Assembly: GCA_015055865.1 (NCBI GenBank)
Contig: SVHK01000010.1
Location: forward strand, 1 to 43,264
Direction: 5' to 3'
DNA from: Clostridiales bacterium
Lineage (GTDB): Bacteria; Bacillota; Clostridia; Christensenellales; Borkfalkiaceae
Length of the DNA stretch: 43,264 nt
How positions within the stretch are numbered: position 1 is the stretch's first letter; the number at the start of each line of letters is the position of its first letter. Shown here piece by piece: positions 39,966-43,264 of the stretch. Under the pieces are notes generated by a model, which did no database searches, was not told where the DNA came from, and saw only the letters and a program-made list of their open reading frames with translations. Made by a program: the position numbers and the translations under genes.

Positions 39966-41288
39966 TTATACGTCGCCTATAACGCCTGTAAACAATACCG
40001 TATCGTAGCTATCCGTAAGCACAAATCCAAACGTTCTATCTACGATAAAATCAAGATATACCTGCGTGTATTCCCCCGGCCCCGGAGCGCCCGCTTTAGG
40101 CATAACCGTAACCGCCGCCCCCTCAATGCCCTTTTTGTCCACTTTCAACTCCGCCACGTGACGAACCTCAGGACAAAATACGGGCGAACCGCTCGTTAAA
40201 TTCGTCAAATTACATGCGCGAATATCAAAAATGGATTTTATTTCAAAATCGTTTTGTAAAATAATAGATACGTCGCCGTCGTATTCGCTTTCAAATTCAG
40301 GGAATAAACAACGCGTATAATATTCTTCCCTTTTTTCATCGTCTATTTCGCTATAATCGATTACGGCGTTTAACGTATAAATATTTTCGCTTGTGAACAC
40401 TTCATCCATCATCTTACCTTCGTCAGGTAAAATGAATTTAATTTTATAGCCGTTGTAAGTTTGCGTGTAAAACGAAGTATAACCTTCGCCCTGATAGGCT
40501 CTTCCGCTTATATATTTTCCTTGTAAAAATCTTAAGTTTTCCGTTTCCCCATCGCATTCTTTAAAGGTATAAGAATTCTCCGTTCTTGCTATATCCTTGC
40601 CGTATTCATTCCAAACGTCTTTTAAATAAAGCGTATTCATCAATACAAATAAGGTTTCGTCATCAAAATTCATATCTTCGTCAATCAAGCCGTTCGTTTG
40701 GCGTTTGATAAAACTTTCTATGGCTTGGTTCGCTAAATTAGGTTTATTTAAAAAGTCCGTTTGATAGGAATAAGCGTAATAATCTTGCGACAACGAATCA
40801 AGACAAGCTTGTTTTATCTCCAAGCTCTTGTCTATCCATATCGAATTGCTCATATTCACTTTGCCAAGCGTTTTTTCTCCAATAACGCCAGAAGTTTTAT
40901 GCTCTACGTTTAACGCGCGGTAAAGCTTTGAAACGTTCGCTTTTAGCGTTTCGTAAGATACCCCGAGCGCGCTCAAAAGCTCCGTACGCGTATCCCCGTC
41001 GGCGCACTCTGTCGCCAACGCTAACGCCATATACACCGATAACGGCGCAATCGCCAAGTTTTCGTCTTTTTCGGATATTTTATAAACCCCTTCGGTCAAC
41101 TTTGCGGAAAACTCGTCTGTCGCTTGTTTAAAAGCAAGATAGCTTTCTTCTTTTCTTTCCTTATAATCAAGCCTTTCAGCTTTGGCTGGTACGCTCAACT
41201 CTTTCGCGCCAAAAAATCCACAAGAACAAAACGAAATCGTCGCTATCACGCCAAGGCAACAAGCTATTGCTTTTTGAATTATTTTCAT
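39966..41288 (-). CDS. lipoprotein serpin (serine protease inhibitor)
   Basis: A 440-residue serpin. Residues 1-22 are a lipoprotein signal peptide with the likely lipidated Cys C23 (SFCSCG), so the inhibitor would be anchored on the cell surface. Serpin hallmarks: NLAIAPLSVYMALALATECA, LNVEHK..., MSNSIWIDKSL, FVLMNTLYLKDVW, VRHVAELKVDKKGIEGAAVT, and the C-terminal FGFVLTDSYDTVLFTGVI. The reactive loop (about residues 385-405) has hinge KGIEGAAVT and a scissile region rich in small residues (PKAGAPG), suggesting elastase-like targets. Position P14 is Ile, bulkier than usual. AAGGAG precedes the ATG. The promoter carries a poly-G tract. Confidence 0.93.
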   Translation of the reverse strand: MKIIQKAIACCLGVIATISFCSCGFFGAKELSVPAKAERLDYKERKEESYLAFKQATDEFSAKLTEGVYKISEKDENLAIAPLSVYMALALATECADGDTRTELLSALGVSYETLKANVSKLYRALNVEHKTSGVIGEKTLGKVNMSNSIWIDKSLEIKQACLDSLSQDYYAYSYQTDFLNKPNLANQAIESFIKRQTNGLIDEDMNFDDETLFVLMNTLYLKDVWNEYGKDIARTENSYTFKECDGETENLRFLQGKYISGRAYQGEGYTSFYTQTYNGYKIKFILPDEGKMMDEVFTSENIYTLNAVIDYSEIDDEKREEYYTRCLFPEFESEYDGDVSIILQNDFEIKSIFDIRACNLTNLTSGSPVFCPEVRHVAELKVDKKGIEGAAVTVMPKAGAPGPGEYTQVYLDFIVDRTFGFVLTDSYDTVLFTGVIGDV

Positions 41289-41337: not shown

Positions 41338-41369
41338 ATTGTACCCCCCCCCCCGAAGGGTTTTGTCAA
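41338..41369 (-). promoter_or_regulatory. serpin promoter with poly-G spacer (candidate phase-variable)
   Basis: On the minus strand, perfect TTGACA (41364-41369), TACAAT (41338-41343), and a 20-bp spacer whose last 11 bases are all G (C-run at 41344-41354 on plus). Spacing is 3 bp over the 17-bp optimum found at nearly every other promoter here. Length changes in the G tract would change promoter strength. Confidence 0.75.
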
Positions 41370-41388: not shown

Positions 41389-41916
41389 TTATTTTCGAGC
41401 AAAATAATGTAACAACGCAATAACCGTTTTACCGTCTTTGATTTCACCGCTATAAAGCATTTGTTTGGCTTTTTCAAGCGGTACTCTCTCCACGGCAAGA
41501 AACTCCCCTTCGTCCAAACGTTGCGCGGTTTTTATCCCGTTTTTCGCTTCGTAGATATAAATCTTCTCGTTCGTATAACCGGGCGACGGATAATCGATAA
41601 ACAAAAGCTCTACCTCCGTCGTTTTTATTCCCGTTTCTTCTTCAAGCTCGCGTATCGCCGTCAAGGCAGGGTCTTCCCCTTTTTCAAGTTTTCCGGCAGG
41701 TATCTCGTAAAGAATTTCGCCGTAAGCGTAACGATATTGCTTTACAAGCAAGACGCAACCGTTTTCAACGTATAATACGCACGCGCCACCCGAATGTTCG
41801 ACGATTTCGCGTTTGCAAGGAGTTCCGTCGGACAATAATGCGTCGTCGTTTCTAAGCGACAAAATCTTGCCTTGATAAACGTAATTGGTTTTTACAGTTT
41901 TTTCTATCATATCCAT
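41389..41916 (-). CDS. NUDIX hydrolase, ADP-ribose pyrophosphatase-like
   Basis: A 175-residue NUDIX protein. The Nudix box is GKLEKGEDPALTAIRELEEE followed by TGI (about residues 76-98), and the N-terminal strand pattern YQGKILSLRNDDALLSDG and VLLVKQYRYAYGEILYEIPA matches the ADP-ribose pyrophosphatase (NudF/YqkG) subgroup. It hydrolyses ADP-ribose to AMP and ribose-5-phosphate. Two in-frame ATGs lie at the start; AGGTG is 5 nt before the first. The serpin gene follows 100 bp downstream but has its own promoter. Confidence 0.92.
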   Translation of the reverse strand: MDMIEKTVKTNYVYQGKILSLRNDDALLSDGTPCKREIVEHSGGACVLYVENGCVLLVKQYRYAYGEILYEIPAGKLEKGEDPALTAIRELEEETGIKTTEVELLFIDYPSPGYTNEKIYIYEAKNGIKTAQRLDEGEFLAVERVPLEKAKQMLYSGEIKDGKTVIALLHYFARK

Positions 41917-42965: not shown

Positions 42966-43264
42966 TTTCCGACGGGAGTTTACTAAGCGTAAACGAGCAA
43001 GGAAACGCGCAGTTCAACGCCGAGTTGCGCACGCGGATTCTACCGCAAGAAAAATAACGAAGCAAGACGCAAGCAAATCAAGGCGAACGAGCATTTCCGA
43101 CGGGAGTTTACTAAGCGTAAACGAGCAAGGAAACGCACAGTTCAACGCCGAGTTGCGCACGCGGATTCTACCGCAAGAAAAATAACGAAGCAAGACGCAA
43201 GCAAATCAAGGCGAACGAGCATTTCCGACGGGAGTTTACTAAGCGTAAACGAGCAAGGAAACGC
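42966..43264. repeat. 128-bp tandem repeat array, open at window end
   Basis: Unit 1 (42966-43093) and unit 2 (43094-43221) are 128 bp each and differ at one base (G at 43009, A at 43137). A third copy begins at 43222 and runs off the edge. Each unit has three small dyads: GTTTAC-TAAGC-GTAAAC inside TTTCC...GGAAA, CAAC...GTTG, and GCGG...CCGC. Then comes a T-poor linker rich in AAGCAA/CAAG-like words. The period is not a multiple of 3, so it is not a coding repeat. No CRISPR-type spacing exists. Confidence 0.9.

Follow-up and report, generated by a model that had tools for sequence, protein, structure and literature searches.

A poly-G tract in the promoter spacer of a clostridial serpin gene is a candidate slipped-strand element and belongs to a recurrent promoter design

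We analyzed 43,264 nucleotides of DNA (contig SVHK01000010.1 of assembly GCA_015055865.1, hereafter the window) from a Clostridiales bacterium, in which the promoter of a serpin gene carries 11 consecutive G (G11) between its -35 and -10 boxes. The run is likely to act as a slipped-strand element of a sigma-70-type promoter, and this promoter probably belongs to a multi-locus set of poly-G promoters, mostly of genes for secreted or membrane proteins, in uncultured gut Clostridia. In the proposed mechanism, replication slippage would add or remove Gs in the tract, and the number of Gs would alter the distance between the two boxes and hence transcription of the serpin gene. By analogy with the porA gene of Neisseria meningitidis, the assembled allele with its 20-bp spacer would be weak or off, and an allele of about G8 (17 bp) would be strongest.

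The same arrangement recurs in the genus, where runs of at least nine G numbered 180 in 40 of 57 genomes. We read 147 distinct runs (the serpin locus excluded; the remainder were duplicates or fell outside the matches listed) and scored a run as part of a promoter if it lay within a spacer of 13-23 bp, a limit of our own choosing, between boxes with no more than 2 mismatches in their 12 positions. By this measure 44 of the 147 runs occupied a promoter spacer in the G orientation and 2 did so on the opposite strand, while at 3 mismatches the strands were alike (6 versus 5), which gives the noise level of the scan. The 44 promoters were spread over 18 genomes and 26 of them had exact boxes; a genus-wide search for the poly-C pattern gave only 2 matches. 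Across the order, exact boxes enclosing at least nine G were matched 107 times, in 51 of 395 genomes and 22 of 142 genera, and the reversed pattern used as a control had no match in the 395 genomes. Of 198 genomes from outside the order in a phylum sample, one had the pattern. A chance G run was rejected as an explanation on the near-zero opposite-strand and reversed-pattern controls. A scan of named genomes, which shows breadth rather than rate and in which single matches may be due to chance, returned at least 120 stretches, with Clostridia, Bacilli, Saccharibacteria, Treponema, Selenomonadaceae, Streptobacillus, Helicobacter and others among the matches listed.

These counts also bear on a sequencing or assembly artefact, in which two-color poly-G reads or stutter made or lengthened the run. 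Homopolymer lengths in short-read metagenome-assembled genomes can err by one or two, and some of the genus runs lie at contig ends. However, an artefact would be blind to promoter direction, and the serpin-promoter run is an internal one, flanked by promoter and gene. Isolate records also contain exact-box examples, one among the matches listed being the complete chromosome of Treponema ruminis RU1. We therefore regard an artefact as very improbable.

A second design was also observed, in which poly-C (15, 12 and 13 bases) lies directly upstream of an exact TTGACA/TATAAT promoter (L058, L075 and L145, in genomes G026, G065 and G078). These promoters are alike in sequence across three species, and the open reading frame (ORF) behind L058 has a lipoprotein-like start.

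Slippage alone does not explain why the tracts favor G so strongly over C in the non-template strand, which suggests that a G tract in that strand also matters. This preference is an argument for a fixed architecture without switching, in which either a regulator site or a GC tract with A-like geometry would hold expression at a stable level, and tract length would drift since spacers of this sort tolerate more than one length. Promoter tracts in the genus were longer than non-promoter tracts (mean 11.0 versus 10.1, P 1.5e-5; all statistics given here were computed without correction for relatedness). Spacers of 17 bp were found in 6 of the 44 genus promoters, and among exact-box pairs at the same loci a 17-bp spacer was present in 26 of 32 pairs without poly-G versus 4 of 30 with it, the latter ranging from 15 to 29 bp when the counting window was extended to 29. 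When tract length was shuffled against the fixed part of the spacer, 17 bp was found in 5 of 98 unique promoters of the order versus 13.6 expected (P 0.0009), a deficit that counts against a fixed architecture. However, the deficit is absent from the genus set (4 seen versus 4.0 expected) and weak in an all-bacteria set that partly overlaps the order set (7 versus 12.0, P 0.04). These values hint at a tendency of assembled populations to lie away from the 17-bp optimum.

Further evidence against a fixed architecture, and for slippage, comes from near-identical paralogous promoters of one genome that differ by one or two G. Such differences were found in G148 (11 and 12 G), L266 (9 and 8), L264 (10 and 9) and the pair L206/L243 (9 and 10); L206 and L243 both lie near contig ends, where their lengths are less safe. 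The three G031 promoters that resemble one another downstream have tracts of 12, 15 and 17 G, the longer two being no more than about 60 bases from a contig end and thus also less safe. Between different species, L187 and L241 have 9 and 11 G. A further pair with a common promoter core, L276 (G9) and G239 (G15), was rejected as evidence of slippage because the flanks are unrelated.

The genes behind these promoters are biased toward the cell surface, which likewise counts against a fixed architecture. A signal peptide or N-terminal transmembrane (TM) segment was called in 34 of 43 first ORFs behind genus poly-G promoters versus 10 of 38 controls (P 2e-6), using a home-made heuristic and, as controls, ordinary promoters of the serpin genome only. 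The 43 entries represent 42 genes, one gene standing behind two tracts; one of the 44 promoters and 2 of 40 controls had no ORF in range. A Pfam search of 41 of these ORFs gave camelysin/TasA-type proteins (five), BspA-type leucine-rich repeats (three), and InlB-type repeats, GLUG, transglutaminase and double zinc ribbon domains (two each). Single matches included LPG synthase TM, GtrA, an ABC transporter and a ribosomal L7/L12 C-terminal domain, so the set does not consist purely of surface proteins. Two paralogous families, each within one genome, have a poly-G spacer promoter of its own before every copy (L080, L081 and L084 in G031; L338-L342 in G158); the families in these genomes are TasA-like and lipoprotein-like.

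At the serpin locus itself (Table 1), the two boxes together match the consensus at 11 of 12 positions. The promoter lies about 50 nucleotides upstream of the serpin ATG at 41288, with an AAGGAG-type ribosome-binding site (RBS) 3' of TACAAT. The first-pass annotation of this DNA had described a 20-bp spacer with an 11-G run as the only such homopolymer in the window, and its coordinates and lengths all proved exact on direct reading; a search of both strands for runs of at least seven G gave five matches, all within the same run. It had also stated that most other promoters have 17-bp spacers, which agrees with the count for this genome (1.43 Mb in 51 contigs, about 94% complete): when spacers of 9-26 bp were allowed, 94 exact TTGACA/TATAAT pairs were present, of which 70 had 17 bp and one contained poly-G. 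A sigma-70 scan restricted to spacers of 16-18 bp did not report the serpin promoter, as expected for its 20-bp spacer. The G tract is preceded by CCCTTC (window 41344-41360, minus strand), and CCC-TTCG-GGG could form a small hairpin in single strands.

Table 1 Features of the serpin locus (positions in the window)
Feature	Position	Strand	Basis
Serpin ORF, 440 aa, lipoprotein-like N terminus	39966..41288	-	PF00079 E 7.9e-46; PDB serpins by sequence; N terminus by eye
-10 box TACAAT (5/6)	41338..41343	-	Read directly
G11 homopolymer tract, longest G run of the genome	41344..41354	-	Run search, both strands
Spacer, 20 bp: aaacccttc (9 mixed bases) + G11	41344..41363	-	Read directly
-35 box TTGACA (6/6)	41364..41369	-	Read directly
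Upstream NUDIX ORF, same direction as serpin	41389..41916	-	PF00293

Runs of at least eight G occur at only four places in this genome. The second-longest, G10 at C9:3756-3765, lies in a promoter of the same form (TTGACA-TTTTTACGA-G10-TATAAT, spacer 19), and the ORF behind it begins like a lipoprotein and matches nothing in Pfam. Both G8 runs are located outside box pairs of the TTGACA/TATAAT type.

The serpin assignment made in the first-pass annotation held, as the product contains a full-length PF00079 domain (profile positions 2-367 of 370), and it is the only serpin found in the genome. In sequence, its KKGIEGAAVTV aligns with the reactive-loop hinge of conserpin, KEGTEAAAATG, and the loop beyond the hinge differs. 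The N terminus, judged by eye and without a signal-peptide predictor, reads MKIIQKAIACCLGVIATISFCSC, in which FCSC is not a clean lipobox. The protein may be a displayed lipoprotein that would face host or competitor proteases.

The upstream NUDIX gene provides another possible source of serpin transcript. The two genes are 100 bases apart, and a terminator scan found no terminator-like site between them, so read-through from the NUDIX gene may supply a basal level. A stronger version, in which the serpin gene is transcribed mainly by read-through and the poly-G promoter is minor or dead, is quite unlikely, as the nearly consensus boxes lie at a normal distance from the RBS and unlinked genes have promoters of the same design. 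At the far end of the window (42966-43264) is a tandem repeat of a 128-bp unit in 2.3 copies with 99% identity, which reaches the contig end.

A serpin match was found in 14 of 61 genomes, counting the serpin genome itself. In the nearest relative (G030, 47% identity), the promoter reads TTGACA-AC-G8-CGGGT-TATAAT with a spacer of 15, so that G8CGGG occupies the same place; most serpin relatives lack the tract, and a serpin of G007 is preceded by an ordinary promoter with a 17-bp spacer. The tract thus goes with a style of promoter used in the lineage and not with serpins as such. Three tandem serpin genes at G007:C49:25688-29698 have no G8 run nearby.

Several observations weigh against a slipped-strand element at the serpin gene. 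Paralogous promoters are equal in length in G292 (10, 10 and 10 G), G158 (five at 9), G303 (9 and 9) and L230 (11 and 11), which also favors a fixed architecture. Among the other serpin loci fetched, besides the serpin locus itself and that of G030, no run of at least eight G was found. The tract length at the serpin promoter is known from one assembled genome of the species, and the activity of this promoter is itself predicted from its sequence. Finally, MutS and MutL are intact and there is no sign of raised mutability in this genome; loss of mismatch repair was accordingly rejected as a cause, although intact repair genes are compatible with slippage. We nevertheless consider a fixed architecture unlikely, given the differences of one or two G, the surface-gene bias and the 17-bp deficit in the order set. 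The slippage promoter proposed in the first-pass annotation is partly supported overall. Its comparative support is strong: the design recurs across the genus and the order, favors one orientation, is released from the usual spacer length, differs in tract length between some near-identical paralogous promoters and lies mostly before surface genes. Slippage in living populations, and a resulting change in expression at poly-G promoters, would be expected by analogy with known systems.

A broader possibility, which we find about as easy to doubt as to accept, is a transcriptional "phasome" in this order of uncultured gut Clostridia. Poly-G, nearly always in the non-template strand, would have been built repeatedly into consensus promoters of unrelated surface genes (lipoproteins, TasA-like and adhesin-like proteins, and the serpin), with assembled populations tending to lie off the 17-bp optimum, so that the switchable set in each would be largely quiet. 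If these promoters switch, gene content alone would mispredict the surface display of these bacteria, and the switching could be measured directly in metagenome reads. Both the G-over-C strand bias and the hinted avoidance of 17 bp raise concrete new questions about the reading of G tracts by sigma-70 promoters.

To our knowledge, most of the slippage-controlled promoters described so far come from a few pathogens. No description of this set of clostridial poly-G promoters was found in the open-access literature with the terms used, judged by titles and abstract openings. Promoters of this kind are already known; within the literature searched, what looks new is the scale and the setting. In Bordetella, the length of a promoter-region homopolymer controls the fim surface proteins. 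Similar control of a surface protein is described for Neisseria opc in excerpts of PMC3960869. The tract in opc and fim is poly-C at or upstream of the -35 box, whereas here it is poly-G within the spacer. The closest likeness is to N. meningitidis porA, in which, according to excerpts of PMC7864442, poly-G lies between the -10 and -35 boxes and spacer length sets expression, with 17 being optimal. The serpin promoter likewise has its homopolymer between the two boxes; however, porA is a single well-studied porin gene of a Gram-negative pathogen, whereas the present set, described here from sequence and often with exact boxes, serves numerous surface genes that are unrelated to one another, in uncultured gut Clostridia. 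The same excerpts describe tpr promoters of Treponema pallidum, which belong to surface genes and have poly-G of varying length that affects activity (PMC7864442). In that case the poly-G is not always between the boxes, other regulators are named too, and the phylum is different. In a gut commensal, Bifidobacterium breve, G-tract slippage controls a surface structure, the pilus (excerpts of PMC9187656). There the tract is intragenic and acts on the reading frame, whereas here it would act on promoter spacing.
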